Source of the DNA: Lantana camara
Lineage: Eukaryota > Streptophyta > Magnoliopsida > Lamiales > Verbenaceae
Direction: 5' to 3'
Length of the DNA: 64,000 nucleotides
Assembly: GCA_037501455.1 (NCBI GenBank)
Contig: CM074865.1
Location: forward strand, 34,392,501-34,456,500
Shown: one piece after another, positions 4,071 through 64,000 of the stretch
Layout of the letters: each line of letters opens with the position of its first letter
Numbering within the stretch: the stretch's first letter is position 1
Program-made: the position numbers and the translations under genes
Notes under the pieces: generated by a model
Told to the model about the DNA's origin: nothing
The model's database searches: none
Seen by the model: only the letters and a program-made list of their open reading frames with translations

Positions 4071-5363
4071 GTAGCACCCCGAGCGGTGGGTACCACATCC
4101 CCCGCACTAGAGTCCAACACGTGTAAAGAAATGAAACTCTTCACATATGTCAAACCATAGCGAACGGGTGAGAAATAAAAAACTTTCCTAAGCTAGGCAG
4201 TCTAGACCCTCAAATCAAAGTGCGTAAATAAACAAGTATAAGCGGAAGCGATTTAAATTCTAGCTATTTCAAACATATATAACATATGTATCAAAGTCGA
4301 GTCATAACATATTACATATTTACATGCCCACCTCGGGCCAAAATAATAAGTATCTAATAAGAGTATACATAACCATGTCCAAAAGTATCATAAGTACATA
4401 ACAAGATAAGACATATGCAAGAGACTCGAGCTATCCACAAGTAAGACGACTAAACCACTTGCCGCCTAGCTCAAGACTCCAAAAGAAGTACCTGCAACTC
4501 AAAAGAAAGGAAAAAAGAAAAACAACAACGAGGGTTACACCTAATGACTAGTGAGGGGCTAACACACTCACCCATATACATATAGAGCAAAGAAATTAAC
4601 AAAACAAGAGATAATCCATGAACCGAGAATGGTTTTTACAATCCAAAACATTACCCGTGATACTAGATATTAGTACTTAAAAGAAATTAAAAGCCGGAGG
4701 CCAAAGCAATCAATTTTAAGTGTTTAGGAATCCCTTCTCATTTCATAGACTCAAGAGATGACAAGAACTCGGTGAGTACAAGTTATCTCTAAACTTCCCA
4801 GGACATGACAAGACAAAAACCAAAGCAAAACAAGTCCAACCAAGCTTCAAGTGGAAAAGAGAGACGCGTTCCCTCAAATCCCATGTCAAGTACGTGCTCA
4901 GACGGGGGCTAATTAATCCTACCCAATCCTTTGATAGTGGTAGTCATCGGCTCAAGAGAACTCACTTTCCCCTCGACCTCCCTAGGTTGATTAAATCCTC
5001 TCAAATGGAAATATGCACAGGAGGTGCGTCCGGCGACCCCATGGCCGTTCCGGATGCTCCTTACCCATATTTCTAGGGCCCAAACAAGTCAAGAACAATT
5101 CAAGTACAAGGAGTCTATTTTTCAAGACCATTTCTCGCTACAAGATCAAACGTACCACAAGCCTTTTCAAAAACAAAACAAAATATAGTATATATACGTA
5201 TAAAAGCATTTTCAAAATCTTTCACAAGCGGGATAAGCCCTCAAGTACGTATTAAACACATATCTATCATATAGTACATATACTTCGCATGCGGGCTTCA
5301 AAACACATAGGGTTTTAGGTCGAAATAGATAAAAGAAACAGAAACCTCACCTTATAACGAAGA

Positions 5364-7832: not shown

Positions 7833-7852
7833 GAAGAATCTGGTCCCCAGAT

Positions 7853-10867: not shown

Positions 10868-10870
10868 CTA

Positions 10871-12567: not shown

Positions 12568-14062
12568 CCTTGGGATGTAGCACCCGGAACGCTAGGCGCC
12601 ACATCTCCCGCACTATAGGCTCAATTCACATATGAAACGGCAATCCATACATGAACCGAAACTATAGCGAACGGGAGACAATAAAAAAAAACGACAGCTA
12701 GGCGGGTACCCTCAATTAAAACCAAAACAACTCAGAGCAATAAAGTAGCGGAAGCAAAAGCGTTCAATACATATAGATACCATATTTACATATTTACTTA
12801 TAGGTACCGACAAATCATACTATTACAATATCCATCCAAGTATAATTCAAGATTTACTACAAAATAACAAGTAACAACACAAGTACAAAGTATGAAGGTG
12901 CAGTGCTAGACCCGAATAAAAGACACGAGACCCTAATTCCCGCCTAGCACGAACCTGCAAAAACTGAAAAGTTGAGGTGTCAGTCCAAACAGACTGAGTG
13001 AGGGGTATAAATAAATATATGCGCATTTACATGCAAGTTATAATCTCGGGTAATAATTTTAGAAAATCACAACACCAAAAGTAAGATAAAAAGGTACTAT
13101 CGCCCGAGATTACCACTAATTCAATTTATCAATTAATTCAGTTCAATACAATCAATATGTGGCCCGGCGAGTGAGGGCAATTCTCCAACCTTGCTCCGAC
13201 CGTGTACAATCAATCAAATTGTTAGGTGATTAGGTGATCAAGCAATTATTTACCGTGCACAATTAGCAGTTTCAATGACTCCTTCTTCCTCCGGGTGATG
13301 GTGGGATTGCAAGGCCCCACCATCCAATCAGTCTGGGCAGAGGGTACATGAATCCCTAAGCCCGGAACTCCTTCCTCCCCTAATCTCCTAGGGGGTTCAG
13401 GGGTCATCCCATTTGGTGAGGATAGCACTCGAGTTACCCGTCAGCCCATGCTTTCCCGGTTGGCTCGAGCCACTATCCTCGGGCCCACAGTGCAATTCAA
13501 TACTCGCCCAATACAATCAATTCGTCAATCAATCAATTTTGTCAAATCATTTGAAAGTCATAAAGTTCGCAAACTATAGATATATATATACATTTTGGCC
13601 GAAATAGTCACATAGGGGTTGTAAAGGTTCTATTTATCTAGAAATTAAACCTCACCTTGACAGCCAACCAAAAAGTGTTGGAAAACAGGAATCAGAAAGC
13701 AGCGGAATTTAAAAAAATTTTCCCAACAAAAGGACCTTGAACTCGCAATCGTGTAACCAAATTCGTAGGGATAGAAAACTTACTTTTCTTTTGTTCTTTC
13801 TTGAAGCGTTTCAAGCCACCCAAGAACGCTCTTCTCGCGGCTTGATCCCCTCTCCTTGGTAAAGCTCGAATCTTCAAACTTCTAACTTGAAGCCTCTAGA
13901 GAAAGTCCACCAACTTGATCACAATCTAACTAGTAAGGATGCTAGTTCTCTAGTTAGTGTTTAGGCTTAACCTAGGGTTTAATTTAATCTTGGAGAAAGG
14001 AAGGTGTTCAACACATGAACCAAGAATTGTCAATTAGCTCTAAAGGGGAGCATGAGCTCCCC

Positions 14063-15628: not shown

Positions 15629-15641
15629 ATCTCCCACTTGC
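15629..15641 (-). other. Polypurine tract of Copia-1
   Basis: GCAAGTGGGAGAT on the minus strand lies directly before the LTR start TGTTAGG. The same tract is kept in the decayed Copia D at 41567-41579. Confidence 0.8.
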
Positions 15642-15644
15642 CCG

Positions 15645-33989: not shown

Positions 33990-34025
<36 letters not shown>

Positions 34026-35063
34026 GATACGTGTATGATATGTATTTGGTAGGAACTGGCCCGTTTGCTTTGAAACGTTTGAAAACGTTTTTATATATAC
34101 GTAAGTTATTTTAGTTTGTTCGTTTTGAAAAGGGTCGGTGTACGTGTTTTGAAATAGCGAGTTATGATTTGAAAATAAGTATGATTTTTTTTTTGAATTA
34201 TGGACTTTGAACTATAAAAGTTGGAACTGTGCCCCCGAAGATTGTACAAAGGAGCCCCGGGACGGTGTTGGGCCATCGGGTAACTCTCTAGTACGGTCTC
34301 CACTTAGAAAGGATCAACCCGGAACGCACTAGGAGGTTAGTGGGGGAAGGAGTCCTCAGGCGTGAGCATCATGAAACTCACGACCCACACTGTGTGAATG
34401 ATGGTTAGGGTAGGCCACCCTTCCATCACCCGGAGAAGAGGTAACCACTTTTTATAGAAGTAGTATCACAGGATAAAATATTTTAGAATATAAAAATTAC
34501 GCCCAGGTTCATGAATCTTCTTATTTTGAATACGCTCTGCTTCATGTATATGTACGTGTGAGTGTGCTAGCCCTCTCACCAGTCTTTAGGACTGACCCCT
34601 CCTCGTTGTCTTCTTTTTCCCCCTTTATTTCTTTGAGTTTGCAGGTGCAGGTGTTGGTTTGTGCTAGGCGGCTGTCTTTCGTTTGAGTCGTTTGAGTCCT
34701 TTAGTCGAGCCTTTTGCATCTCTTGCATCTTTACTTTTCTGTACTGGTATTATATATTAATATGTATAAGTTATGATTCAGAATTCGAACTTCGACCCTT
34801 GTAAGATTTATGTTGGCCCGGGATGGGCATGTTTGTAAGTATTTGGATTAGTTGGATATTATTTGTATGTTTGACGATCCTGATGCTTCCGCATGTATTT
34901 TGTTTTTGTCGCACACTCTGAATTTGGGTCTAGACCGCCTAGCTTAGGTGTGATTTTGTTTGTCACCCGTTCGGTTTTACTTGATGCGTGTGCGGAGTCT
35001 TTATTTTGTTAGACGTTTCGAGTTATGGTGCGGGGGATGTAGTGCTCTGCGCTCCGGAGTGCA
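31673..35063 (+). repeat. 5' LTR of element F
   Basis: It starts TGCAACATCCCGG. It aligns with 37731-41169 except that a TRIM remnant (33022-33587) replaces about 450 bp present at 39077-39525 in the other LTR. A (TA)n run lies at 33991-34021. Small frames here are not conserved between the two LTRs. Confidence 0.85.
33022..33587 (+). mobile_element. TRIM-like miniature LTR element, 3' end lost
   Basis: A 188-bp LTR (33022-33209) runs TGTTGGGTAGCAAACCC to GGTCATAACA, with a TATATAAG box near 33070. A PBS (TGGTATCAGAGC) follows at 33212-33223. About 365 bp of non-coding interior follow, containing CCTTGTGTCGAAAGTC twice. No second LTR is found; sequence returns directly to LTR F at about 33587. 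A deletion probably removed the 3' LTR together with the missing part of the host LTR. Confidence 0.75.
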
Positions 35064-35071
35064 TCCGAAAG

Positions 35072-35083
35072 TGGTGTCAAAGC
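35072..35083 (+). other. Mutated primer-binding site of element F
   Basis: TGGTGTCAAAGC, eight bases after the 5' LTR end, differs from the tRNA-Met PBS at two positions. Confidence 0.7.
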
Positions 35084-35269
35084 TCTTGGTTGCAAAACCG
35101 GAGCTCTTGTGTGGTGTTAGGTTTGTCTGGGTCGTTCGGCTTAGGGTTACGTGTTTGTTTGCATTCACTCTCTCACTTATGTAAATTATTTGTATTATAC
35201 ATGAACATGCACTTACTGATCGACTTGCACCTATACCTCTATTGTAATTTTTGTGATTTTTTGGAGTCA

Positions 35270-36151
35270 CTTATAGATCAGATAGCAACTTTGTTCCGGG
35301 AGTTTGGGGCTTTCAATCCTTCACATTTTCGAGGAGGTAATGATATTGAGGCCGAGGAATGGCTAGCGAAGATAGAGGGGATATTTCAAGTATGACCATG
35401 TAATCCTCAAAACATGGTCCGCCTAGTTACATTACTTCTACAAGGACGAGCAAAATTATGGTGGTCAAGAGTCACTCATCGAGTAGAGGCAACGCGAGAA
35501 GAATTGACTTGGGATGTGTTTGCTCGGGAATTCAGAAAGAGGTACACTCCGACCATTTTACAAGATCGAAGAATCGAAAATTTTGTCACTCTTAAGCAAG
35601 GGGACAAAACCGTTATGGAATATTTGGAGGAGTTCGAGAGGTTGGGTTCATACGTACTATCTATTACCAACGATGATCGGGTAAAGGCTAGATATTTAAT
35701 GGAAGGCCTTCGGAGCAAATTTAGAGAAGCTTTGATTGCAAGAGACACAAGTACATGGGACAATGCCGTCGAGAGGGCACTACGGATCGAAACTCAGTGG
35801 ATGGTAAGGAAAAGACATGAAGAAAATGCACCGGAGCAACCATTTGGGTTAGGTTCATGTTCCAACCTATGAGTGGAAGAGAAGCCGAGTCGACAAGGTA
35901 CACCGACCAAGAAAAGGAGTAGTAAGAAGAAGCCTAAGCCCTGGAAGACCCCACGATCAGAGAGAGAATTCCAACCGTGCGCCCATTGCAGGGGGACTAA
36001 TTACGCATTTGATGGATGTTGGGTTAGGTTAGGAAAATGCTACGCTTGTGGATCTTCAAAACATAAGCTTCCTGATTGTGACCGTTCGAGGGCTAATAAA
36101 CAAAGGAGGCGTGGGCTTCGAATTGGAGACCAAGGTGCACCCGGGAATTGA
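35270..36151 (+). pseudogene. gag: Element F gag, broken by two TGA codons
   Basis: A gypsy Gag domain is clear: FNPSHFRGGNDIEAEEWLAK, then WWSRVTHRVEAT, FRKRYTPTILQDRR and ARYLMEGLRSKFREAL. Two zinc-knuckle regions follow. The second is a good CCHC (CYACGSSKHKLPDC); the first has Tyr where His is expected (CAHCRGTNYAFDGC). TGA codons at 35393-35395 and 35870-35872 interrupt one continuous frame with no frameshift. Both fit CGA-to-TGA change, and the His-to-Tyr change is also C-to-T. The start codon is not certain. The frame ends at 36151 with no protease. Confidence 0.85.
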
Positions 36152-37200
36152 GGTAATTGCATTCATGGCATCCCATACATGCATATTTTAAATTTGGGGG
36201 AACCCACTTGTTTTCTCTTTTCTTCTCGTTGCTTCTTAGTGTTGTTTGTTGCTGCTTGATGTTGGTTGTTGTTGTTCTTTCGGTGTGAACTCTCTTCTTG
36301 AAGAGAGTTTTGGTTAGGTTGAGTGCTCGAGTGTTTGGTGAGTTGTGAGGGCCCAGTTTGGTGGACTTGTTGAAGACGCCTTGTTGAGGTACGGAGCTAC
36401 CTTAGGCATGGTTGTTGATTGAGTGTCGTGTGCTTTAGTGATTGCTTTTGAGAGGCCCGTTCGGGGCTCAACGGTATTTTTGGGTAATAGATTGAAGGCT
36501 AGCCCATTACATCCTTTGTAAAGTGATTGTTTAATCTGGGATGGTGCGACAAGCTATGTGGCTTACCTTTGGGTTAATCGGGGGGATCGAGCCAAGCTTG
36601 AGGAGATGAAGATCGAAGAAAGATTCTCTTGATGTTTCCTTGAATGTTGGAATTCGTTACTACTTGATAGGAACGTTGAGGTTATCGTGATCTTTATCTC
36701 GGAGTTTAACCTTGTTTGAAGATTCCCTACCGGATGGCTCTAGCGAGGTTGTTGGAGTTGAGGGCGTAGTTCGGTAAGCTCTTAGAAGGTAGTTCACTCA
36801 TTTGGGGTACTTCTTTGTTTAGTGCTTTTGTTCTATCTAGAGAAGAGGATGGAATCTTTTGAGTGAGAATAACTACAGTGAGCTACACAACTTAAGTATG
36901 GAAGTTTAATACCCTTCGCTGCTTCGAGAGTGTTCGTTCTTCTCCAGAGTTTCATGGTTGACGCCGAGTTTGATTTTTAATAAGGGTATAACCGACTACG
37001 CATCCGTGTAGAAGAACCGAGAATTATCTCAGAGTAGAAGTCTCTAGTGTTATCGGGATTTGACAAGAGATTCGTCTTTCTTTAGGCAGCCATCCCATTG
37101 ACATGAACGACAAACAAGAGACACGGTTTGATGGGGAAGAGGTGTTCGAAGAGTGCTGCCTTTGGGTACTCAAAACTACACTGCTACAATCGGGGCACTA
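36152..37200 (+). other. Non-coding interior of element F
   Basis: About 1 kb with no recognisable domain. It includes a TTG-rich tract (36200-36280) and a perfect palindrome with arms AACTCTCTTC/GAAGAGAGTT near 36288-36309. It may be heavily decayed pol or unrelated filler. Confidence 0.5.
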
Positions 37201-37239
37201 AGAAAGGCTTTGATTGCGCGTAGCTTACTGAATAGTGCG

Positions 37240-37515
37240 GTTTACACCTCTAGAAGTGCAAGCTCACGAGTCTTATCCTACTCTTGTTTCGAGTTTTTCC
37301 GAAGACTTGAAGAACCGGTATGATGTGATTGGCATGAGAAAAGATGTTGTGGACTTAGTTTAGCAATGTCCAATGTGCCATCGGTGGAAGGCCGAACATT
37401 ATGAACCGGTAGGTTTCTCCAACTACTTTCGAATTCTATTTTAGAAGTGGGAGCAAATGACCGAGGACTTCGTGTCCGATTTGCTAAGGCTATGGAGATT
37501 TCAATTAGAATTCGA
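37240..37515 (+). pseudogene. Integrase zinc-binding remnant of element F
   Basis: Translation gives QAHESYPTLVSSFSEDLKN, then GMRKDVVDLV, stop, QCPMCHRWKAEHYEPVGF and, after another stop, a WEQMTEDFVSDL-like piece. These correspond to the HHCC region and start of the integrase core in gypsy Pol (element [23 protein letters not shown] region, then [15 protein letters not shown]). RT and the rest of integrase are absent. Confidence 0.75.
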
Positions 37516-37716
37516 GAGGTTGCTTGTTTCAACGAGTTGACTTATTTTCTCTTAGCAAGTTTGTTCGTCGAGGTTCTGAGAGCCTCTTAGTTCGGAGAGA
37601 AGCCCGAGGAGTCTACCGTCTTCTTGGATCAGAGTGACGTAGTGGAAGCATGGAGTTGAGTTCGTTTTCAGAGTCGATCAAGACCCCGCTTTAGGACCTG
37701 GGGACAGGTCCTTTTG

Positions 37717-37730
37717 AAGGAGGGCAGTTT
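37717..37730 (+). other. Polypurine tract of element F
   Basis: GAAGGAGGGCAGTT precedes the 3' LTR. It nearly equals that of K (GAAGGAGGGGAGTT), supporting a family link. Confidence 0.75.
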
Positions 37731-40700
37731 TTAACATCCAAACTTTTTGGCCGTACAGGTATGTCGTAACGAGTGAGCTAAGTGCGTTTTTAAATTATTT
37801 ATTAATGGTATAATATGTCTATTATATTGTTATATGTTAATTCTTGAATTAATATGAATTATTTGTTAAGTGTTATATATGAATATTTGAACGTTTTTAA
37901 CCTTTTGAACTTGTTTTCGATCCGTTTGAGTTCCGACTTGTTTCCAAATTTTGTGAAAATTTGATGCATGAAATATGTGTGTAATAAATTTTTTTATATG
38001 CTCGTTTTACATTTTTTGACTTGTTTAATATGGTAACGCGCCATATTTTATTTGTTAGGGACTCGAAGGCCTAGCTCTTTTTAGCGCGCCTTGTGTTCCG
38101 GAATTTATAACTTGAGCTCCAAAATTCGGATTAAAATTTTAGAAGTGGTGCTGGACTCATAACAAAATTTGGGAGCTTTTGAACCTAGCTTTGTAATTTT
38201 CTAAGCCGGTTTGACCCTCTGAATTTTGCCCGAATCGTGAACCTCGCGCGTGACTGCCACCTTTTACGGTTTTGGCCATAAATAATTCATTTCTTAACCA
38301 AATACCTTGATTCTTGAGCCAAATTAACCCTAGTTAAGACATCTATCTCTCTCCCTAACCCTAATTTTAAACTCAGCTCCAAGGAGAGAGAGAGAAGCAG
38401 CTGAAACCGAGAGAGAGGAAGAAGGGATTTTTGTACTATTCATCTTTGAGGATTTCAAGCTCGTATCTTCTTCGATTCTTCTCCGATTCAAAAGGTATGA
38501 ATATATTCTTGTTCCTTCTCTCGTTGGAATTATTTTAAGCTTTGGTTTGTGCACTTTCATGGAGGTTTGAGCATCCTATGAGTTTGAGCATGAATAGTTA
38601 GGTTTTAGCTTCAATTCTTGAATCCATGTTTTGAGTTCGTTTTTGTGTCAATTGGGGCATGAAATGTGATTAAACTTGCTGCTTTTCTGTATATTTATGC
38701 TTGAATTTGATGTTCATGAAGTTTATGAAGCTCCACCATTGTTGAACCATGGAATTCTTGAAGGTTTTATGAACTTTGTTGAGCTTAATCCTTGCCGTTG
38801 CTGTGAGTAAATTTTGGGGGATGTTTGCTGCATGTTTTGTTGCTTTCTTGGCTGTTGTTTGCTACCGCGAGTTGCTTCTTTGTTGCTCTACTGTTATGGA
38901 ATGGAGAGGAACAGGGGAAAACAACAACATTCTCGCGAAGAAGAAGCGGCTGCGCTAGGTAACGGGCGTTACGGTTTGGAAGGCTTTAGGGAGTAACGGT
39001 CTTGGGGTGCAGCTGTGAGTGTTAACGGGGGTTACCCCCATTTCTCTTGGGAAGGTTAACCCCCATCACCCCTCACATTTTCAGCTATTAATGGCTGATG
39101 AGTGAGGGGCTTATGCTTGGCTTCTTCTTGCGTGATATGTGTTTACGTGTGTTTTCTTGATTCGTTTTCAATTGTATTTGATTCCTCCCACCCCGATTAT
39201 GATCCTAACATGTTAATATGTTCTATTATCTCATGTTTCGTTATTCGTTTTAATTTTATGGCCTTGTTTATTAGGTGTAGACGAAACTTGTTTGCATAAA
39301 CGTTTAAATGATACGTGTGATATTTCTTGCATCCATCGCCTCTCTTATGTATTTTAAACTCATGAATGGTTATGATATCTTATAATATGATGTATTATGA
39401 ACATTGTTCTAATATTATGGATTTATTCGACTTGGTTTCGATGCTTTGATATGTGAAATATGATATTATATGCTCTATTTGATCTCCAACATGCATGAAT
39501 GAATGAGTACCTTGTTTCTTTGCCTTGTGTGATATCTTTTTGCTTCTTTTATGATATGAATGGCTTGTTAACATGTTATATGAAGTGTTATGCTCATTAT
39601 ATGAAATTTATGAATCTGTTTGACGTAAAATATGTGATCTATGAGTTGACATGAATTTGTATGAGTTAAATGTCACCTTGTTGCGTTTCGTATGCATCAT
39701 TTGCATTCATATGCATTTGCCGAGCATCTAATTGGTTCATCTTGAGTCTAAGTATGTCTTTTGTTCTTTTTTTTGTTCAGAGGTCCGTTCCCAGGGCAAC
39801 GAGGTGGTCCTTTTAGTGTGCTCTGGTTTGCTTCCGTATGGTTAGTTCATCAAGGTGAGGTTTTCTTTCCTTTAGTTATTATGACCTACAGCCCTAAGTG
39901 AAATTTAAGCCTGCATGAGACCTACATATATGTATATATATAGATATAGATAGATATGTGTATGATAAGTATTTTGTGGGAACTGGCCCATTTGCTATGA
40001 AACGTTTGAAAATGCTTTTATATATATGTAAGTTATTTTATTTTGTTCGTTTTAAAAATGGTCGGTGTATGTGTTTTGAAATAGCGAGTTATGATTTGAA
40101 AATAAGTAAGATTTTTTTTTTTTTATCAATTATGAACTTTGAACTATGAAAGTTGGAATTGGGCCCCGGAGATTTGTACAAAGGAGCCTCGGGACGGTGT
40201 TGGGCTATCGGGTAACTCCCGAGTACGGTCTCTACTTAGAAAGGATCAATCTGAAACCCACTAGGAGGTTAGTGGGGGATGGAGTCCTTGGGCGTGAGCG
40301 TCATGAAACTCACGACCCATACTGTGTGAACGATGGTTAGGGTATGCCACTCTTCCATCACCCGGAGAAGTGGTATGTCTGTTTGATTCTGTTTTTGTTT
40401 GAATTATAAACTTGATTTTGATTGTGAACGGAGTTAGGTTGGCCAGAAACTTGTACTTGCCGAGTTGTGTGATTTTGTTTATGAACTTGATTCGTGAAAG
40501 AAGAGTGGACTTCTAATTATTAAAATTGGTTGATTTTGGCTTTCGGCCTTAAACCCCTTTTTATATAAGTAGTATCACGGGATCAAATGTTTTAGAATGA
40601 CAAAACCATGCTTGGGTTCATGAATCTTCTTATTTTGAATATGCTCTGCTTTATGTATATGTACGTGTGAGTGTGTTAGCCTCCCACCAGTCTTTAGGAC

Positions 40701-41169
40701 TGACCCCTCCTCATTGTCTTCTTTTTCCCCCTTTGTTTCTTTGAGTTTATAAGTGCAGGTGTTGGTTCGTGCTAGGCAGTGGTCTTTCGTTTGAGTCGTT
40801 CGAGTCCTTTAGTCAAGTCTTTTGCATCTCTTGCATCTTTACTTTTCTGTACTGGTATTATGTATTAATATTTATAAGTTATGATTCAGAATTTGAACTT
40901 CGACCCTTTTAAGATTTATGTTGGCCTGGTATGGGCATGTTTGTAATTATTTGGATTAGTTGGACATTATTTGTATGTTTGACGATCCTGATGCTTGCGC
41001 ATGTATTTTGTTTTTGTCACGCACTCTGAATTAGGGTCTAGACCGCCTAGCTTAGGTGTGATTTTGTTTCCGTTCGCCGTTTCTTGATGCATGTGCGGAG
41101 TCTCTATTTGGTTACACGTTTCGGGTTATGGTGCGGGGGATGTAGTGCTCTGCACTCCGGGGAGCTACA
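37731..41169 (+). repeat. 3' LTR of element F
   Basis: 3439 bp, starting TTTAACATCC (expected TGTAACATCC) and ending GGGGAGCTACA, followed by TSD TGTAT. It lacks the TRIM. No gene. Confidence 0.88.
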
Positions 41170-43133: not shown

Positions 43134-43138
43134 AACAG

Positions 43139-46100
43139 TGTAACACCCCGCACGTGAGGCGCCACATCCCCCGCACTATGACCCGACACGTGTACGAAAT
43201 GGAGAGTCCGCACACGCACCAAGTCACAGCGAACGGGTGACAAACGAAAACGCACACACTAGCTAGGCGGTACCTAATCCTGTACAAAAGAAGATATGCG
43301 AAGCATGATAACGGAAGTAGTACGAAATGCCAACTTTCAAAAGCTTTCATACCTTAAACGCACAGTACCATACAAACATCAAAATCAACTAAACGGGTTC
43401 GACTAATCCAGCAAACCTGTCCTAACCTGTCCCGAGCAATCATATATTCACAACGGGTTCAACTAATCCAAGCACCTGTCCTAACCTGTCCCGAATTCCA
43501 TAAATTCAAATCATAAATGCAAACCTGCACAAACATATCTTATACAGAGTTTACGAACCATAAATCAGAATAAAATACTTAACAAACTGAAACGTGCAGA
43601 CACAGACTCGACAGACACGAGACACCGCCGCCTAGCACGAACTCCAACGAACACCAAAGCAACGCCTGCAAACTAAAAACATAAAAGGGGAGGGGTCAGT
43701 CCAAAGACTGAGCGAGGGGCTACACACACGCGCGTATATACATATACAGAGCACAACACATATCATAAAGGGGAGTTCGTGAACCAGGGCGTGGTTTTTG
43801 CATTCTAAAATATTTCACACGTGATACTAGATATAGGGGAGTAAAAGAGTTAGGCCAAAGGCCAAAACAATCCAAATTTTATTAATTATAAATCCACTCC
43901 CGTTTCCCGAACCATTTCCTAACAAACTAACTTAACAAAACAAACACACCAAGCAAATGTTCAGACAAAAGGGGAAAATGTGCACAGGAGTAATACTCGA
44001 CGCTCCGAGACTCCTTACCCACATCCTGATGATCATGCACAGGAGTAATACTCGACTCTCCGAGGCTCCTTACCCATAATCACCGGGCCCCCACGCAAAG
44101 CAGAGTCAAACCATCAAATCAGAGGGGAAATGTGCACAGGAGTAATACTCGACGCACCGAGGCTCCTTACCCACATCTCGATGACCATGCACAGGAGTAA
44201 TACTCGACTCTCCGAGGCTCCTTACCCATAATCACCGGCCCTACACCAACACACACAACACTCCCACACACGCACTCGCACACACACACCACCACTCACT
44301 CACAAACTCACGCACGCACTCACAAACTCACGCACGCCACGTTCATAATCATAATCATATCATAGTTTACACATTCGAATCAACACGAAACATATCACAA
44401 CGCACACATCCCATATACTCATTCTCAAACATAACACGTACAATCATACATATCGTACTTGCATATCTTATAACCAACATAACACCAAGTCACACATATT
44501 CGTATTGCACACGTATCTACATATATACGTAAGGCTTATATTCGTATGCAACATATAGGCACATATCAATAGGGTATAACTATAACCTAACCTCACCTGG
44601 TACCAAACACAGCCGAACACAAAGCAGAAGGTCCACCCCGGAACCTGCACGATTCACTTGTCACCACCCCGGGTGCACCTGAACCAACTGAACACACAAA
44701 ACAGACCACAAGGCTCAGACTCAACTCAGACAACCACACAGGGACGCACGGCAAATGCAATCACATAAGCAGGATTCAAATCCATATTAATTTCAGGCAA
44801 AACAAAACATTAAGGCATGTCCATAAGCACAATTAATGCAATTAAGGGGACTTAAAAGGCAATAGAATTCACAGATAACATTTCGTAAATTTATACGTAT
44901 TATAAAGCCAAACAAATCATATAATAACATGCTACAAATTCTATTTAAAGATCACGAAGTTACATATCAAATTCCAATTTACGTGATTAACATATTTATT
45001 TACCAAGTGACAAATTTGAAGTTCAATTAATTCAAATCACGCAAGTCTACATATCACATTTTATACAAAATTCACATAATAGCACGTTACGAATCCCTTT
45101 AAGCTTACGAAGTCATATATCAAATTCCAATTATGTTATTCAATATTACCAAGTTCATACAATTTATATGTTTAGTGAAATTACATATACACCCCCTTCA
45201 AGATAGCCAAATAGCTCAAATTCGATACATCGGAATTCAAATGGCATATCAAAGCATCAATATAATCCATAATTCATCTAATACATGATTTCGTACTCAT
45301 TGAAATACAATTCGATCGACAAATCAAGCTATTAGCAATTAAAACAATTAATTTCAAATATTCAAGTTATACAAAATAAATCACAACAAATCAACCGGAC
45401 ATCCGATTGACGAACGGGAAGTGGCGTTGGACTCACCACAAAGAAACGGACCTACTGTCCGAAAGTCGCCGGAATGCCGCCACCGTAGCCGACCGAACAG
45501 CCACCGGCCGCCACCGGAACACCGCCTCCGGTGGTCGGAAAAATCCCCGGAAGGACAGAAACGTGTGTCTCGGCCTGCTCGACAAAAACCCTCAATCAAT
45601 TTCAGAAAATACCAAACACGCCGGACTTCGTTGACGAAAAACCGAACCAAAATCCTAGTACGAAAACTGAAATTAAATACAAACCGCTAAATGAAATAAA
45701 ATCCGGACATACCGTTGGAAAGCCCGTAACGAGCTCTACGAAAGCCCCTAGCCAAAACCCGGAAAAAGTCACCGGAAAATCGGACCGCCGGTCCAGGCCC
45801 GGTCCGCCACCGGTTCGCCGCCGCCGGCCGGTTCTCGAGTCGGGGCCAACGCCATTCGCTAGTTTCCGTCGTTCTAAGCAACTTTCGTGAAGCGACCAAC
45901 ACCAAAACCGGCCCGGAAAAGGGCCCAAATCGCCGCCGAAGTTCTGCCGCCGCGCCACCACCGATTCCGCCGTCTCCGCCGCGATTCGCTCAAAAAGGAG
46001 GCCGGAAATGGAACGGGAAGGGTCAAAAACGTAGGGTAGGGTAGTGGTTGGCCGGCGAAAGTCGCCGGATCGCCGGCGACGAAGTGGTGGCGCCACCCGC

Positions 46101-46647
46101 CACTTTCAGGCCGCCGCTGTGCCGCCGTGGGTCGTCGGTTGGCTACGAAGTTGGTACGGTTGTGACGGGCTCGTCGAGCTGATGAATTTCGACTATTGAT
46201 TCGTCGAATTCCGTCGAGAAACGAGGGGGAACGAGCATGTGTGTGAAATCACACCTTCGAGTGTGTGAACAGTGCTGTTCGCTGGAGGAAGACGATGCAG
46301 GCTGAGGTCTGATCTTTTGGCACGAATTACGAGGATTCGGGGTATATATCTCGGGTCCTCGTACGTAAAAACGGTCGGAAGAACGGGCTAACGAAGTCAG
46401 AATTGAGCAAACTCAGAGTCTACGGACTCGTCTCGATGCCCCGAACGCGTTGAAGGGGTCAAAAAGGTCGAAAACTCAATCGAACGAGAAATGACCAAAA
46501 GACCCCTAAAAAGAGAAAATTACAAAAGGGCCCCTAAACTCTAAAAGAGTTCAAAATAGGGCCACGAAAATATAAAATCACATAATTAAACACATAAAAG
46601 GGTTGAAACGTGTCGTACCTCATAAATCGGGCGAGCGGGATGTTACA
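43139..46647 (-). repeat. 3' LTR of element K
   Basis: Plus strand runs TGTAACACCCCGCACG to GCGGGATGTTACA. It contains a two-level tandem repeat (43975-44240), CA-rich microsatellite (44235-44340) and a GC-rich block (45420-46150). Open frames in the GC block, up to 164 codons, occur on both strands and are not called genes. Confidence 0.93.
43975..44240 (-). repeat. Tandem repeat with nested inverted repeats in the K LTR
   Basis: Four units begin TGCACAGGAGTAATACTCGA and end GGCTCCTTACCCA (one has GACTCC). They are arranged as two pairs about 125 bp apart. Each unit has AGGAG/CTCCT outer arms and a CTCG/CGAG inner stem. LTR B has a related single unit near 5014-5072 (TGCACAGGAG ... GCTCCTTACCCA). 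The same array is in the other K LTR at about 48637-48900. Confidence 0.7.
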
Positions 46648-46661
46648 AACTCCCCTCCTTC
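46648..46661 (-). other. Polypurine tract of element K
   Basis: GAAGGAGGGGAGTT on the minus strand lies immediately before the 3' LTR. Confidence 0.82.
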
Positions 46662-46970
46662 AAAAGGACCTGTCCTCAGGTCCTAAGGTCAGATATTTAA
46701 TGGAGCTGAAACGAATTACACTTCAAGCTTCCGCTGCGCAACTCTGATCAAGGCGGACTGCAATCTCTGTAGGATACTTCTCCCTTGGCTGGCATCAACT
46801 CCCTTCATGGTGATTCGTTGTCATAGAGGTCCCACTGAGCACTTGACCGTTGGTCACTTCAACTCATTCGATCACCACTAGGCCACTGCACCCGAAGCTT
46901 GATACCGTCACGTCCTCGTTGCTTGCAAGCTGTCGTCTGGCCAAAAGTAACGCAACCGCAACAAACAAGA

Positions 46971-47309
46971 GAGAGAATCCCATCTCTCGACACACAAGCG
47001 AAGGAACCCCATCCCTCGGCACACAAAAGAGAAAACCCCGTTTCTCAACCTAAGTCTGATTGATTCCACATCTCTCAGACAATCTAGTTTGAGAAAATCC
47101 GGCATTTCTCAAACCCTAAATTCAAGGGAATCCAGCAGCCCTCGAATACCTAAGAACAAGAGAATCCAGCATCTCCTGTACACAAAACTCAGAAAGAATC
47201 CAACATCTTTCTGTCACGTAATATAGAGAGAATCCAGCATCTCTCTAACACACAAGTAGGAAGAATTAACATCCCCCTAGCACATAAATAGAGAGAATCA
47301 AATCTCTCT
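46971..47309 (-). repeat. Eleven-hairpin array with shared loop and different stems
   Basis: Hairpins on the plus strand: 46971-46988, 46999-47018, 47029-47046, 47054-47080, 47087-47114, 47121-47146, 47156-47179, 47190-47213, 47224-47247, 47257-47279 and 47290-47309. The commonest loop is AATCCAGCAT (ATGCTGGATT in sense RNA), with variants. Arms differ while staying complementary, for example GAGAAA/TTTCTC, GTTTGAGAAA/TTTCTCAAAC, CAGAAAG/CTTTCTG, TAGAGAG/CTCTCTA. Imperfect stems have A.C on the plus strand at 47002/47015, 47024-region excluded, 47124/47143, 47159/47176 and two in 47257-47279; all become G.U in sense RNA. The fourth hairpin also has a 2x2 internal mismatch. Confidence 0.85.
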
Positions 47310-47780
47310 CACTCAAGCACAAAAGCAAAATTAAAATCACAACAATTAGTAAGTATCACAATCGATAGATATATCACGTAATATCAAGGGTTAATCAAAT
47401 AAAGAATGCATGTATGCTCGTGTCATGCATGCTTAATGTACCGTTCACCGTAGTATTGGAAGCCTTGACCAAGAAAGGTGATTACATTGTTGCTAAAGCA
47501 GCCCTGTAGTTAAAACACTAAATTGGTGCATGAGGGTTAAGAATGCAAATGTAATGTGACATCTAAGTCATGTAAGCACAACAATAAAAGCAATTAAAGG
47601 CACATTGATAAAATGTTTGCACAATCATAATCATATTGCGCACTTAATCACATAACTCAGTACAATTCAAACTGAGGAAGCAAAATTACAGGCCAAACGG
47701 ATGCAATGTGCACATATTCCTACGCCGTACGACCTAAACTGACACGACACGAGTCCAGAGCACCAGTTCTGAACCTGGTA

Positions 47781-47792
47781 GCTCTGATACCA
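47781..47792 (-). other. Primer-binding site of element K
   Basis: TGGTATCAGAGC on the minus strand, eight bases inside the 5' LTR, complementary to initiator tRNA-Met. Confidence 0.92.
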
Positions 47793-47800
47793 CTTATAGA

Positions 47801-50800
47801 TGTAACACCCCGCACGTGAGGCGCCACATCCCCCGCACTATGACCCGACACGTGTACGAAATGGAGAGTCCGCACACGCACCAAGTCACAGCTAACGGGT
47901 GACAAACGAAAACGCACACACTAGCTAGGCGGTACCTAATCCTGTACAAAAGAAGATATGCGAAGCATGATAACGGAAGTAGTACGAAATGCCAACTTTC
48001 AAAAGCTTTCATACCTTAAACGCACAGTACCATACAAACATCAAAATCAACTAAACGGGTTCGACTAATCCAGCAAACCTGTCCTAACCTGTCCCGAGCA
48101 ATCATATATTCACAACGGGTTCAACTAATCCAAGCACCTGTCCTAACCTGTCCCGAATTCCATAAATTCAAATCATAAATGCAAACCTGCACAAACATAT
48201 CTTATACAGAGTTTACGAACCATAAATCAGAATAAAATACTTAACAAACTGAAACGTGCAGACACAGACTCGACAGACACGAGACACCGCCGCCTAGCAC
48301 GAACTCCAACGAACACCAAAGCAACGCCTGCAAACTAAAAACATAAAAGGGGAGGGGTCAGTCCAAAGACTGAGCGAGGGGCTACACACACGCGCGTATA
48401 TACATATACAGAGCACAACACATATCATAAAGGGGAGTTCGTGAACCAGGGCGTGGTTTTTGCATTCTAAAATATTTCACACGTGATACTAGATATAGGG
48501 GAGTAAAAGAGTTAGGCCAAAGGCCAAAACAATCCAAATTTTATTAATTATAAATCCACTCCCGTTTCCCGAACCATTTCCTAACAAACTAACTTAACAA
48601 AACAAACACACCAAGCAAATGTTCAGACAAAAGGGGAAAATGTGCACAGGAGTAATACTCGACGCTCCGAGACTCCTTACCCACATCCTGATGATCATGC
48701 ACAGGAGTAATACTCGACTCTCCGAGGCTCCTTACCCATAATCACCGGGCCCCCACGCAAAGCAGAGTCAAACCATCAAATCAGAGGGGAAATGTGCACA
48801 GGAGTAATACTCGACGCTCCGAGGCTCCTTACCCACATCTCGATGACCATGCACAGGAGTAATACTCGACTCTCCGAGGCTCCTTACCCATAATCACCGG
48901 CCCTACACCAACACACACAACACTCCCACACACGCACTCGCACACACACACCACCACTCACTCACAAACTCACGCACGCACTCACAAACTCACGCACGCC
49001 ACGTTCATAATCATAATCATATCATAGTTTACACATTCGAATCAACACGAAACATATCACAACGCACACATCCCATATACTCATTCTCAAACATAACACG
49101 TACAATCATACATATCGTACTTGCATATCTTATAACCAACATAACACCAAGTCACACATATTCGTATTGCACACGTATCTACATATATACGTAAGGCTTA
49201 TATTCGTATGCAACATATAGGCACATATCAATAGGGCATAACTATAACCTAACCTCACCTGGTACCAAACACAGCCGAACACAAAGCAGAAGGTCCACCC
49301 CGGAACCTGCACGATTCACTTGTCACCACCCCGGGTGCACCTGAACCAACTGAACACACAAAACAGACCACAAGGCTCAGACTCAACTCAGACAACCACA
49401 CAGGGACGCACGGCAAATGCAATCACATAAGCAGGATTCAAATCCATATTAATTTCAGGCAAAACAAAACATTAAGGCATGTCCATAAGCACAATTAATG
49501 CAATTAAGGGGACTTAAAAGGCAATAGAATTCACAGATAACATTTCGTAAATTTATACGTATTATAAAGCCAAACAAATCATATAATAACATGCTACAAA
49601 TTCTATTTAAAGATCACGAAGTTACATATCAAATTCCAATTTACGTGATTAACATATTTATTTACCAAGTGACAAATTTGAAGTTCAATTAATTCAAATC
49701 ACGCAAGTCTACATATCACATTTTATACAAAATTCACATAATAGCACGTTACGAATCCCTTTAAGCTTACGAAGTCATATATCAAATTCCAATTATGTTA
49801 TTCAATATTACCAAGTTCATACAATTTATATGTTTAGTGAAATTACATATACACCCCCTTCAAGATAGCCAAATAGCTCAAATTCGATACATCGGAATTC
49901 AAATGGCATATCAAAGCATCAATATAATCCATAATTCATCTAATACATGATTTCGTACTCATTGAAATACAATTCGATCGACAAATCAAGCTATTAGCAA
50001 TTAAAACAATTAATTTCAAATATTCAAGTTATACAAAATAAATCACAACAAATCAACCGGACATCCGATTGACGAACGGGAAGTGGCGTTGGACTCACCA
50101 CAAAGAAACGGACCTACTGTCCGAAAGTCGCCGGAATGCCGCCACCGTAGCCGACCGAACAGCCACCGGCCGCCACCGGAACACCGCCTCCGGTGGTCGG
50201 AAAAATCCCCGGAAGGACAGAAACGTGTGTCTCGGCCTGCTCGACAAAAACCCTCAATCAATTTCAGAAAATACCAAACACGCCGGACTTCGTTGACGAA
50301 AAACCGAACCAAAATCCTAGTACGAAAACTGAAATTAAATACAAACCGCTAAATGAAATAAAATCCGGACATACCGTTGGAAAGCCCGTAACGAGCTCTA
50401 CGAAAGCCCCTAGCCAAAACCCGGAAAAAGTCACCGGAAAATCGGACCGCCGGTCCAGGCCCGGTCCGCCACCGGTTCGCCGCCGCCGGCCGGTTCTCGA
50501 GTCGGGGCCAACGCCATCCGCTAGTTTCCGTCGTTCTAAGCAACTTTCGTGAAGCGACCAACACCAAAACCGGCCCGGAAAAGGGCCCAAATCGCCGCCG
50601 AAGTTCTGCCGCCGCGCCACCGCCGATTCCGCCGTCTCCGCCGCGATTCGCTCAAAAAGGAGGCCGGAAATGGAACGGGAAGGGTAAAAAACGTAGGGTA
50701 GGGTAGTGGTTGGCCGGCGAAAGTCGCCGGATCGCCGGCGACGAAGTGGTGGCGCCACCCGCCACTTTCAGGCCGCCGCTGTGCCGCCGTGGGTCGTCGG

Positions 50801-51309
50801 TTGGCTACGAAGTTTGTACGGTTGTGACGGGCTCGTCGAGCTGATGAATTTCGACTATTGATTCGTCGAATTCCGTCGAGAAACGAGGGGGAACGAGCAT
50901 GTGTGTGAAATCACACCTTCGAGTGTGTGAACAGTGCTGTTCGCTGGAGGAAGACGATGCAGGCTGAGGTCTGATCTTTTGGCACTAATTACGAGGATTC
51001 GGGGTATATATCTCGGGTCCTCGTACGCAAAAACGGTCGGAAGAACGGGCTAACGAAGTCAGAATTGAGCAAACTCAGAGTCTACGGACTCGTCTCGATG
51101 CCCCGAAAGCGTTGAAGGGGTCAAAAAGGTCGAAAACTCGATCGAACGAGAAATGACCAAAAGACCCCTAAAAAGAGAAAATTACAAAAGGGCCCCTAAA
51201 CTCTAAAAGAGTTCAAAATAGGGCCACGAAAATATAAAATCACATAATTAAACACATAAAAGGGTTGAAACGTGTCGTACCTCATAAATCGGGCGAGCGG
51301 GATGTTACA
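47801..51309 (-). repeat. 5' LTR of element K
   Basis: 3509 bp, the same length as the 3' LTR. Examples of the few differences: C/T near 49238, C/A near 51107, G/T near 50814. No gene is called. Confidence 0.93.
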
Positions 51310-51314
51310 AACAG

Positions 51315-55977: not shown

Positions 55978-56830
55978 TGTAGCGCCCCCACTTTGCTGGT
56001 AGAGAGCGGCGCCCCAACCCCCGCACTGAAGCACCCCTCAAGTAATGGTGTGAGCCATTACTCAAGAAATACCCCAGCGAACGGCATATCCATTAACGAT
56101 TAACAAATAGTGTTTAACTATGTGGCTTATGCAGCGGAAAATCAGAGTATTTTAAAACTTTTCAAAACATGTGCGTGATGGCATATAAACAAGCAAGTAC
56201 TGATCGTTAAGCAGAAGAGACTATTAACATTACTGTATCAATTGAACGTTGTCACGGGAGCGTAAGATAGCAATTGCAGCAGTATCCAAGTAGCAGAAGG
56301 ATTATTACAAAAGCATAAGGTAAAGTATCAATGCAGCCATATAACATATGCAGGACACAAAATAGATTAATAAAGTAAAGTCCTGACTCAAACAAAATGA
56401 ACACTCTAGAGCTTCAAGATACCTCTAGACTGCGGCTGCAAGACCTGAAACCATGAGGCCAGAAAACAGGTAGAGGTGTTAGTCAAAGTGACTAAGTGAG
56501 GGATATCTTTAAAAGAAAGTACTTAAAGTAAACGTTTGAAGTAAAGTTCATAAGGTAAAACCTTTAATGAAAAGCTTTGAAGAAGAACTTAAGAATAAGT
56601 TCAAGTGATAAAACCCTTTGATGCAATGCTATATGTAATGAGAGTTTTCAAAACACTTTCATGAATGCTGTCACACGCGCACACATATGCTATGATTTGG
56701 TTCATATGATTTTCATAAAACGGGATAAGGGTAGGGAACAACTTTGCAAGATATGAACCAACTTTATGAAAACATTGATGCCCGCAAGCTAGGCTTCTCC
56801 ATCCTTACTCCAGAAAACATGATTTGGTTG

Positions 56831-56990: not shown

Positions 56991-57303
56991 ACAAACATGC
57001 ACCATCCTCCACCAAGTTTCACTTCGGGGAGCGACCCCTAGGTGACCATTAACCATTGATTTGGGAATAGATTTGCGGTCCATTCCCGACAATTGTCCTG
57101 ACTTAACCAAACCTCCTGATTAAAGTCGGTATCAATCGCCTAGTGTGGCGGCCGGTATTAGTGATGTCGTTGGCGCTCACCTCCCGAGCATCACCTCTAC
57201 ACATAACCGCCGGGCCCATACCATTAACCATTGATTGCTTGCACCATTGATGACATCCAGAATAAATCCGAATGTATGAACCATTGAACATATGCATTGA
57301 ACC

Positions 57304-57535
57304 ATTGAACCATTGATGCATTACTTTGAAAACATGAACCTTTGATGCATTACTTTGAAAACATGAACCATTGATGCTATACTTTGAAAACATGAACCAT
57401 TGATGCTATACTTTGAAAACATGAACCATTGATGCATTACTTTGAAAACATGAACCATTGATGTTGTACTTTGAAAACATGAACCATTGATGCTATACTT
57501 TGAAAACATGAACCATTGATGCATTACTTTGAAAA
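57304..57535. repeat. 29-bp tandem repeat, 8 copies
   Basis: The unit is CATGAACCATTGATGCATTA plus CTTTGAAAA. Variants alternate GCATTAC, GCTATAC and GTTGTAC. Units are contiguous without spacers. Because 29 is not a multiple of three, the long open frames across it are repeat artefacts. Confidence 0.88.
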
Positions 57536-60103
57536 CATGTGCCTTTGATCAATGAATATGGATAGGTCTGGGTTCTTTGAAGAATCATCCCTTATAAAGG
57601 GTATTTCAAAACAAGAATGTAAAGCACTAGGCTTAGAGTCTCAAAACGATTGAATCATTAAGTATTCATGGTTCCAGTTGAAATAGTTTAACCTCACCTC
57701 ACCTATTAGTAACAGTAGGTAGGATAGATTATGCAGTGCCCTGGGGATTCCAGTGCTCAACCTTAACTCCTGTAAGTGTGTACTAAGGTGAGCTAAGACA
57801 CACTTCTATCATGATGCACATATAAAACAAGTACAGAACATGTAATGACAAGAGAGTAATACCATTTAAGGTATTAGAGAAGGATAACACACAAAGGAAT
57901 CCTTAAAGTGAGTTATCAATAACGTGGGACTATGATCTTACTATAATCGATTAGGAATTAATCAAATTATGAATCCTATCGCAAAACCTTAGGTTATAAA
58001 ACAAGTTCTCGAAAGAAAACACATTTTGAAATCACATTTTAGACCCCGGATTTGAAATCCCTAAGTGCAAATGTCTATTAAGAAAGCACAAGTTTTAATT
58101 CACTTTTACTATTCAAAAGCACTATTCACAGTTACTATTCCAGATTACTATTCACGGATTACTATTCACAGGTTACTATTCACTTGTCGGGTCAAAGGGT
58201 CGGGTCAAACCCACACACTAAACACACACTCATGCACACACACGAACACACACACGGCATGCACACACACACACCCTAATTCAATTATGATCTTGATTAT
58301 AATCTATAGTTCAAGTTCATGTTATTATAAGCAAGTGTGACCTAGGTTAAAGGCATAACCTATGGTTAAGAGGTCTAATTAAAGCATAACATCAAGTTAT
58401 GAAACACTATTCTATCTTAGGTTATAACATGTAACACTATCAAAGTGTATAACATATAATCAAAGCACTATTCCATTAATCCATATCATATCATAAGCTC
58501 AAGTCATAACATATGAGTCATGTAACATTGTAACAATGTAATAACATATCATAGACATAAGTCATAGCACATCAAGACCATTAATCATGTAACATTTATC
58601 AATTAAGACCATATAGTAACATGTAACAAGTTATAACATAATTGATCATAGGTTACTATTCCATTGCATAACATGCTTGAACATAAATTAAATATCATAA
58701 TCATGCATCAATTATCATCATATAATAGCTCCATAACATGATCATACCATATACTAAAGCAATTCATAACATTTCATAGCATATACTAAACAATTAAATC
58801 ATAATTCACTACTAACAAACATATCATAAAAACTATATAATAAATGCATAAAATAAAATCCTATATGTCTTAGGGAAGACCCTAAGACCCAACCTAAACA
58901 TAATATAAACATACCATAACATAAAAACATAAACTAAACTAAAACATAACATAAACTAAAGCATAAAAAATAAAACAACTAACCTAGCTAACAAAAGGGG
59001 GGGGAGACGGCAAGAGGGGGAGAGAGGGAGGAAGAAAGGGAGTTGTTAACACAACATTGAGCAAGGAAAATGAATGGCATGAGAGCTCTATTTATAGGTG
59101 TTGGGAAGCCCCTCACAATGGAAATAAACTTGAGGTAAGGGTATGAGAGCAAAAGTGGATGTCTTCTCTTGGAAGCTTCATCATTCATGAAACAAAAATA
59201 GGGGCTGCTGGAGGGTATTTCGGTAATTTCAGCTCCAAAACGTGAAGGAGAGTGTCTGGAAATATAACCATTCCATCCGGCCAAAAATTAGCTTCGAAAC
59301 GCATATTCATTCGTCGGAATCGGATTTACCGTTTGAAAGATACGTTAGTTTTAATGAATAAAAGTTTTGAGCTCGAAACTCGACATGAGTGAAAAACGAC
59401 TTTCTAGAATGATTTTCAAGTCCGGATTGTTTCCAAAATTCAAGAAATAAATCGAGAAGCGTTTTGAATCCAAAATCGACTATAAAACGTTTTACCGTTA
59501 AAAAGTTGAAAACGTAGAGTGAATAGTGAATTCTTACGTACAAGCGTACGCTTCAAAATTTCGAGCTAGGGTTTGAATCAAGAGTTGTAAAACATTTCAA
59601 AAATCTTGAAATAGCTCGAGTAATGCAAATCCGAAGAGAAAACATTTTCCGAATGAAAACCGTTCGTAGAAGGAATAGTGAACTAGGGTTTTCGTAAACA
59701 TTTTCAATAAAACGAAGTTCGGAATAGAGTTTCAAGTCAAGAATGATTTCAATAGATTCATCTCGACTCAAGGATCGATTTGACTGTAAACTTGGGTAGG
59801 AAAGATATCAGAATCAAAAGCTCATTTTTCAGAAGAATAGTAACTTTGGTCGGTAAGTTCCCAAAATGCCCTTATGGTTCAAGGAAGGTTTCCGGAACTT
59901 GGAAAGCAAGTTCAAAGGATAGGAAAACATGTGATATGAACCTCTAGGGTTCCATTGAAGCATTGGGTAATATAGGCTTGGGAAATGAATAGTAAACTGT
60001 ATCGAAGGTCAAGAATTCCCCCTTAAAACATGTCAAATCACATATGAGCACAAAGTTCATGTAAGAATGCAATGCATGAAGGTTTATAAAGTTGAATCAC
60101 GGT

Positions 60104-62269: not shown

Positions 62270-62442
62270 GATGATACTGAAGTTTCACGCATTTAGACAT
62301 GTGTATAATGCATGACAGTAAGGATGATTCACATAATTGGTAACCACGTATTCACATTTCCACGTAGTCACATATAATCATGAGAATAACACATTCCCAC
62401 AACAAGATATCAACAATAATCCATTATCACATTACCACATAG

Positions 62443-63321: not shown

Positions 63322-64000
63322 TGTAGCGCCCCCACTTTGCTGGTAGAGAGCGGCGCCCCAACCCCCGCACTGAAGCACCCCTCAAGTAATGGTGTGAGCC
63401 ATTACTCAAGAAATACCCCAGCGAACGGCATATCCATTAACGATTAACAAATAGTGTTTAACTATGTGGCTTATGCAGCGGAAAATCAGAGTATTTTAAA
63501 ACTTTTCAAAACATGTGCGTGATGGCATATAAACAAGCAAGTACTGATCGTTAAGCAGAAGAGACTATTAACATTACTGTATCAATTGAACGTTGTCACG
63601 GGAGCGTAAGATAGCAATTGCAGCAGTATCCAAGTAGCAGAAGGATTATTACAAAAGCATAAGGTAAAGTATCAATGCAGCCATATAACATATGCAGGAC
63701 ACAAAATAGATTAATAAAGTAAAGTCCTGACTCAAACAAAATGAACACTCTAGAGCTTCAAGATACCTCTAGACTGCGGCTGCAAGACCTGAAACCATGA
63801 GGCCAGAAAACAGGTAGAGGTGTTAGTCAAAGTGACTAAGTGAGGGATATCTTTAAAAGAAAGTACTTAAAGTAAACGTTTGAAGTAAAGTTCATAAGGT
63901 AAAACCTTTAATGAAAAGCTTTGAAGAAGAACTTAAGAATAAGTTCAAGTGATAAAACCCTTTGATGCAATGCTATATGTAATGAGAGTTTTCAAAACAC
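63322..64000 (-). repeat. 5' LTR of element L, cut by the window edge
   Basis: It repeats 55978-56656, apparently without change. The rest lies to the right of the window. Confidence 0.92.

Follow-up and report, generated by a model that had tools for sequence, protein, structure and literature searches.

The 64,000-nt stretch of Lantana camara DNA analyzed here (the window) carries a complete, non-coding LTR retroelement, K, whose internal region contains an array of eleven hairpins with arms that change in step from one repeat unit to the next. The explanation that we tentatively prefer, while holding it at somewhat less than an even chance, is that K is a LARD-like derivative in which the array has been kept by selection on RNA as a docking site for a helper.

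A young LTR element and its relatives

K was delimited by self-BLAST, with its boundaries and TSD read from the sequence. Its parts, and two other elements of the window with which it shares sequence, are as follows.

43139..51309, minus strand: K, complete non-coding LTR retroelement
47801-51309: 5' LTR of K, 3509 bp
43139-46647: 3' LTR of K, 3509 bp
46648-47800: internal region of K, 1153 nt
47781..47792, minus strand: primer binding site (PBS) of K, TGGTATCAGAGC, read from the sequence at the start of the internal region in sense
46648..46660, minus strand: polypurine tract (PPT) of K, AAGGAGGGGAGTT, read from the sequence at the end of the internal region in sense
43134-43138 and 51310-51314: TSD AACAG, 5 bp, on both sides of K
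31676-41160, plus strand: J, a decayed element with 3.4-kb LTRs and a gag remnant (Pfam match)
5362-13675, minus strand: A, a chromodomain gypsy element with gag, protease, RT, integrase and Chromo

It is clear from the comparison of its two LTRs that K is young and recently mobile. The LTRs are 99.69% identical over 3512 aligned bases in self-BLAST, a match that overruns the LTR ends by 3 chance bases and so gives 3509 bp, and there are 11 differences between them. The youth of K means that the array was carried by a recently mobile copy. The LTR divergence amounts to 0.16% change per lineage, from which ~0.24 mutations are expected since insertion across the 152 bases that form the stems of the ten regular array hairpins, so that the array, together with the five G.U pairs described below, was probably already present in the mobile source copy. 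K sits inside an element that we call copia-like from a reading of its frames, both flanks being homologous to 15236-19143 by self-BLAST. The primer binding site TGGTATCAGAGC is presumably of the initiator tRNA-Met type. The strongest sense-specific fold among the 5' LTR and internal region lies at 47713-47952, across the 5' LTR end and the PBS, and may be a structure around the primer site. Two overlapping 120-nt windows there have z -4.1 and -4.3 in sense, while the antisense values are +1.2 and +1.4. At the start of the 5' LTR (50953-51192), it is the antisense that folds strongly (z -4.7 and -4.9), and the sense folds weakly.

The first-pass annotation of this DNA, made from the letters alone, had described K as non-coding, and as far as tested this is borne out. 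The internal region is touched by 17 listed frames of at least 40 aa, the longest stop-to-stop frame being 91 aa. Three of these, all crossing the array, were scanned against Pfam and gave nothing at E 0.1, and an Rfam scan of 43139-51312 gave no match up to E 1. BLAST at E 1e-3 found no relative elsewhere in the window for the part of the internal region from ~90 nt past the PBS to 100 nt before the LTR. Together, the silence of Rfam and Pfam and this stretch without relatives between J-like ends favor the possibility that the region is leftover captured host or satellite sequence, without a role, which happened to be present in the element that founded a small family. We consider this decidedly improbable, as the array belongs to a recently moved copy and its arms pair much better than permuted ones.

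The ends of K point to its lineage. K and J match at 76% over 101 nt at the PPT, the final ~100 nt of the internal region, and at 71-81% at the LTR end and PBS, and K and A match at 77% over the 79 nt following the PBS. This sharing of the LTR end and of the PBS and PPT flanks is what would be expected if chromodomain Ty3/gypsy elements were the source of K. Pattern scans with the PPT stretch, the PBS stretch and a triple-loop pattern in genome contigs gave 0 matches, and a search with the gag of A found 2 relatives, on short contigs. The window has two further repeats of note. A 1.36-kb sequence with 99.4% identity links the 3' internal region of A (6457-7817) to a site beside another LTR-like repeat (23718-25079), and a pair of 679-bp repeats (55978-56656 and 63322-64000), 100% identical and placed around a gag frame at 61070-62284, probably marks a gypsy element that inserted very recently and is truncated by the end of the window.

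Eleven hairpins with covarying arms

The array occupies 46971..47310 on the minus strand, and its hairpins run in sense from H1 (47310) to H11 (46971) with a spacing of 29-34 nt.

47291..47310, minus strand: H1, 7 pairs
47257..47279, minus strand: H2, 8 pairs, 2 of them G.U in sense
47224..47247, minus strand: H3, 8 Watson-Crick pairs, loop UGCUGGAU
47190..47213, minus strand: H4, 8 Watson-Crick pairs, loop UGUUGGAU
47156..47179, minus strand: H5, 8 pairs including 1 G.U, loop UGCUGGAU
47120..47147, minus strand: H6, 9 pairs including 1 G.U, innermost C.U, loop UGCUGGAU
47087..47114, minus strand: H7, 10 Watson-Crick pairs, loop UGCCGGAU
47054..47080, minus strand: H8, 6 + 3 pairs flanking a 2x2 mismatch (plus-strand fold)
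47029..47046, minus strand: H9, 6 pairs
46999..47018, minus strand: H10, 7 pairs including 1 G.U
46971..46988, minus strand: H11, 6 pairs

The first-pass annotation had reported eleven consecutive inverted repeats, and all eleven are found at 46971-47310; every one except H8 has a continuous stem of 6-11 pairs and a loop of 6-10 nt when G.U is allowed. The five A.C mismatches that it had placed on the plus strand are likewise where it put them (47002/47015, 47124/47143, 47159/47176 and two in 47257-47279), and all five, which fall inside the uninterrupted stems of regular hairpins, are G.U pairs in sense; these ten stems have no other mismatch within them. Its statement that other mismatches occur only in hairpin 4 overlooked the C.U at the innermost pair of 47121-47146 (H6). 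The loop that it had described as common to the array holds in part: UGCUGGAU is exact in three of the eleven hairpins, differs by one change in two and by three in H8, and the loop is shorter in the other five.

Counted as Watson-Crick hairpins with a stem of at least 6 and a loop of 6-12, the array has 6, while 300 shuffles average 0.40 and never exceed 3; with G.U allowed its 10 hairpins are not unusual among shuffles (mean 6.5, maximum 10). High hairpin density by itself is not unique to the array, and it is exceeded elsewhere in the window at 14181-14520 and 22341-22680, with 10 Watson-Crick hairpins per 340 bp each. Those two intervals, AT-rich or palindromic, are dense clusters of Watson-Crick palindromes that include repeated ACACGTGT motifs, in a repeated LTR-like sequence.

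What sets the array of K apart is the relation between its arms. When the 3' arms are permuted among the eleven hairpins (positions 1-8 scored; the test was also run without H8), the true arrangement gives 68 Watson-Crick pairs vs 52.1 +/- 3.4, a value reached in none of 20000 permutations, and counting G.U gives 75 pairs vs 64.8 +/- 2.5 (3/20000), in agreement with the earlier claim that the arms change in step. Within H3-H7, seven of ten pairs have changed on both sides vs 2.7 in shuffles (reached by 2/500), and the covariation is lost when the partner register is slid by 1-3 columns. The true matching of columns also outscores 20000 random matchings in the ten hairpins other than H8, with some single off-diagonal cells scoring as high as true ones and positions 1, 8 and 9 contributing nothing. 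All of this covariation is measured between repeats within one copy of K, and the repeats share ancestry. The loops of H3-H7 are quieter than the arms: six of eight loop columns are invariant vs 2 of 20 in the arms (Fisher p 0.0018), and the mean pairwise difference is 0.10 in the loop vs 0.47 and 0.48 in the arms, while the loops of the remaining six hairpins are more divergent or shorter. A protein that binds the loop would be expected to leave such a trace, with the arms changing together while the loop changes less.

A serious rival, to which we likewise grant less than an even chance, is that the array is a palindromic minisatellite, that is, a 30-34-bp quasi-palindrome that was amplified in tandem and in which template switching, when DNA is replicated or RNA reverse-transcribed, copies arm onto arm, with no function of the RNA. 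According to the available part of PMC8794818, template switching can create and maintain perfect stems and multi-base compensations. In the array, it explains the outer arms better. At outer pairs 7-8, double transversions make up 21 of 28 pairwise changes, which suits template switching better than drift through G.U and counts against our preferred explanation, and long outer stems such as that of H7 resemble an arm copied from an arm. The core speaks the other way, as paired transitions that keep the purine 5' arm account for 53/53 pairwise double changes at pairs 1-6, with G-C, G.U and A-U coexisting at four of the six positions and with G.U but no A.C intermediates (core and outer counts are of non-independent events and cover the ten hairpins other than H8). 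Also against a minisatellite is the lower variation of the H3-H7 loops, as does the fixed orientation of the units: purines occupy the 5' arm and pyrimidines the 3' arm throughout the core of the ten regular hairpins, with the C of H6 as the one exception, and no loop in the array is the reverse complement of the common loop. Template switching can invert a loop, although such cases were rare in PMC8794818.

Tandem repeats are common in LTR elements, for example the minisatellites of Gmr9/GmOgre and the arrays between pol and the 3' LTR in Retand (available portions of PMC3305785 and PMC11963269), and this also favors the minisatellite. However, tandem repetition by itself does not bring hairpins, since 12 of 15 other tandem arrays, hand-picked from 75 TRF rows (one starting 50 bases ahead of its row), have no Watson-Crick hairpin with a stem of at least 6, and the remaining three have 1, 2 and 4. 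The repeat at 57276-57539, with a 29-bp unit in 9.1 tandem copies and no Watson-Crick hairpins of at least that stem length, illustrates the contrast to the array of K.

The first-pass annotation had taken the G.U pairs, through their strand bias, as an argument for selection on RNA, and the composition of the sense strand and the folding of the antisense rule this out as proof. The sense-strand loops and linkers of the array contain T 80, G 58, A 27 and C 16, and owing to this excess of T and G, a stem transition gives G.U rather than A.C with a probability of 0.75-0.78. Five of five G.U would then arise with a chance of 0.23-0.30 on the loop and linker composition and of 0.06 if base frequencies from elsewhere in the internal region are used (0.03 without skew), and is unremarkable. 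The antisense of the array folds more strongly than the sense, both globally (z -7.91 vs -4.55) and locally at a span of up to 34 (z -8.91 vs -5.85), and folding of the antisense as well as or better than the sense, here and in the LTR hairpin region, favors the minisatellite. When the full internal RNA is folded, the probability of a local stem averages 0.54 over the eleven hairpins for sense and antisense alike, with sense values as low as 0.03 for H1, 0.00 for H9 and 0.17 for H7, and in the array alone it averages 0.49 in sense and 0.63 in antisense.

These local probabilities are lowered because arms of different hairpins cross-pair. Such cross-pairing in the ensemble is what a GAGAG/CUCUC dimer exchange would require, and it favors a structural role of the RNA other than packaging (dimer exchange, protection or stabilization of the transcript, slowing of RT or hiding from silencing), as does the lack of any known protein partner. 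We nevertheless regard such a role as quite improbable, given that the arm-specific covariation favors pairing of each hairpin with itself. A kissing partner for the main loop was not found within K, which has no complement to it at up to 1 mismatch, whereas weaker loop types of the array do have one-mismatch complements there.

The proposal that the array or its loop would recur in a gag-bearing partner was not upheld in the window, where the best match outside the array had E 0.21 with a model built from H3-H7 (R1). That model, which found no array in J or A, is insensitive, scoring H1 at E 0.095, H11 at 0.39 and H8 at 0.98 and leaving H2, H9 and H10 unlisted. In viral contigs, none of 56 matches to a 16-base pattern has a second loop motif TGYYGGATT within 60 nt, and by our own estimate about 56 matches are expected by chance in that collection. 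A further pattern scan of viral contigs gave 29 stretches, several with more than one match.

Three-tier hairpins in the LTRs

A second set of covarying hairpins lies in the LTRs of K, with likely or possible counterparts in other elements of the window, including an LTR-like sequence, X.

48634..48903, minus strand: four three-tier hairpins in the 5' LTR of K (48841-48901, 48786-48846, 48689-48749 and 48634-48694)
43972..44241, minus strand: four three-tier hairpins of identical type in the 3' LTR of K, the counterpart of the 5' LTR set
5004..5075, minus strand: homologous three-tier hairpin in X (K-only model, 37.1 bits, E 9.3e-8; fold)
34237..34301, plus strand: probable homologous hairpin in a J LTR (E 0.038; other LTR, 40168-40235, E 0.26; hand alignment)
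13416..13480, minus strand: possible homologous hairpin in an A LTR (position and fold; other LTR, 6204-6268)

In each K LTR, a 118-bp unit is duplicated and each copy contains two ~60-nt hairpins, built of an outer stem, a tier of AGGAG with CUCCU and a tier of CUCGG with UCGAG. Six bases differ between the two 118-nt copies; two of them do not pair when copy B is folded, and the other four fall in three pairs. All three changed pairs remain paired in sense (one G-C to A-U and two between Watson-Crick and G.U), and two of them would be A.C in antisense.

The covariance model used for these hairpins was built from the four K sequences alone. The hairpin in X has an outer stem altered on both sides relative to K, and a large share of its model score comes from sequence held in common with K. 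Copia-like palindromes at 14409 and 22599 reach E 0.078 in the same model, between the two J matches, and the J hairpin therefore leans also on its position and on the hand alignment. The A hairpins score at chance level (E 4.6), and their possible homology is judged from position and fold. The distances before the LTR end are 842 nt in A, 833-1040 in K, 757 and 927 in J and 934 in X.

Over the 20 pairs of the K-J hand alignment, 110 of 120 cells pair in sense and 93 in antisense. The sense cells include 22 G.U, 5 A.C (all in J) and 5 other mismatches, and a count of 110 is reached by 4/720 permutations, of which one is the true order. At one inner pair, K has U-A where the two J LTRs have C-G and U.G. 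For the outer stem, all 56 cells pair across seven sequences (four from K, X, and one LTR each of J and A, J5 and A5), with 8 G.U and 0 A.C, and all eight positions have changed on both sides, p1 via J only and p2 via A only. This pairing is reached by 2/5040 permutations with the true order included, and by 1/120 with one row per type, for stems that were selected by eye since they pair, with A taken in by position, J3 left out for a register-shifting bulge (16/20 paired) and A3 left out as identical to A5.

The case for the LTR hairpins is one of covariation and not of stability. The 286-nt hairpin stretch of the K LTR has z -1.46, with 18 of 200 shuffles folding equally well, and at limited span the region has z -2.10 in sense vs -3.48 in antisense, with single K hairpins preferring either strand. 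The X hairpin has z -0.73 in sense and -2.38 in antisense, and in 91-nt pieces, the J hairpin is no more stable than shuffles. The three-tier hairpin is common to K and X and probably also to J, and is a candidate for a lineage-wide RNA element.

At sense position 2939 of the K LTR (~48374) and position 678 of the A LTR, a TATA-like stretch is followed by CCCCTC(G/A)CTCAGTC, and both elements have a short CAGUC...GACUG hairpin there, with loops of 4 and 6 nt, perhaps at a transcription start. The CTCAGTC block is common to K and A and has no match in J or X. Because the TATA-like stretch and this block lie downstream of them, by about 260 nt, the K LTR hairpins are probably in U3 and would stand at the 3' end of the RNA.

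Proposed helper docking and known systems

For the array, selection on RNA is a hair ahead of template switching, because the arms vary in step around a steadier loop and because changes in the LTR hairpins keep their pairs. We infer both this selection and the docking role, and the sequence of events that we propose is as follows. K would derive from a chromodomain-type Ty3/gypsy lineage in which ~1 kb of non-coding sequence has replaced the genes, and the array would have arisen when a single hairpin unit of 30-34 nt was duplicated in tandem. In the genomic RNA of K, the units may form a row of short hairpins that expose a G-containing loop of the UGCUGGAU type, and RNA selection would preserve both the loop and the pairing of the arms, even as the arm sequences drift. 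The array could then offer many docking points to a helper protein supplied in trans, with a helper Gag as the first candidate, and such docking would let the untranslated K transcript be packaged and copied. Packaging by a helper is a reasonable guess.

A bolder version, which we think unlikely, joins both sets of hairpins into a two-part RNA passport, in which the lineage-wide LTR three-tier hairpin in four copies and the eleven loop-presenting hairpins let K outcompete helper RNA for Gag. If it were true, multiplication of hairpins would be a route by which a retroelement parasite becomes super-packaged. The likelihood of both the docking and the passport reading is lowered because the antisense folds better for the LTR hairpins too and because J has A.C cells. 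For the question of how a helper chooses the RNA of LARDs and other non-coding LTR elements, the array offers a candidate signal that is easy to test, being discrete and regular and having a steady loop. The LTR hairpin, with a model match in X and a weak one in J in the same 64 kb, can be looked for in any other plant genome. The answer would be instructive either way, whether selection on RNA or palindromes synchronized by template switching.

The closest known kind for K is that of LARD-type non-autonomous LTR elements. LARDs have long LTRs, a gypsy origin and an internal domain of several kb, which in Sukkula measures ~3.5 kb. To our knowledge, no tandem array of covarying hairpins has been found in LARDs. 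K has the paired long LTRs with a TSD (3.5 kb, AACAG), the PBS and PPT and, as far as scanned, the lack of retroelement proteins of a LARD, and since its internal region is only 1153 nt (1.15 kb vs about 3.5 kb in Sukkula), we call it LARD-like and do not file it as a LARD. The available text of PMC7215508 describes the LARD core domain as protein-less, presumed dependent on other elements and specifying well-conserved RNA secondary structures, and K resembles such elements, for example Sukkula of barley, in being an LTR element with a core without proteins. The same text requires short LTRs of a TRIM, and K, with LTRs of 3.5 kb, was rejected as one. A retrozyme was also rejected, as it requires a hammerhead ribozyme in the LTR and the Rfam scan of K (43139-51312) had no match up to E 1.

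BARE-2 is of copia type and retains pol. As a Gag-less parasite of BARE-1, it is still packaged and has conserved dimerization and packaging signals, as far as the available part of PMC3735527 describes it; K is like it in having no Gag of its own and unlike it in that those signals are not described there as a hairpin array. The tandem repeats of Gmr9/GmOgre and Retand, like the array of K, are internal to an LTR retroelement and precede its 3' LTR, whereas these minisatellites belong mostly to coding elements, and covarying hairpins go unmentioned in the available portions of PMC3305785 and PMC11963269, the former being without the words hairpin, secondary structure, stem, palindrome, inverted and fold. 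Among the matches listed from the open-licence literature, there is no tandem array of covarying hairpins in a LARD-like element, which is no proof of novelty. A further parallel comes from the dispersed packaging signals of RNA viruses, which the available part of PMC6281560 describes as several sequence-structure motifs sharing one recognition motif. Whereas those signals are spread through the genome and bind coat proteins, and the array of K is regular and known from sequence alone, the two may be alike in principle, as multiple stem-loops that present a common motif.
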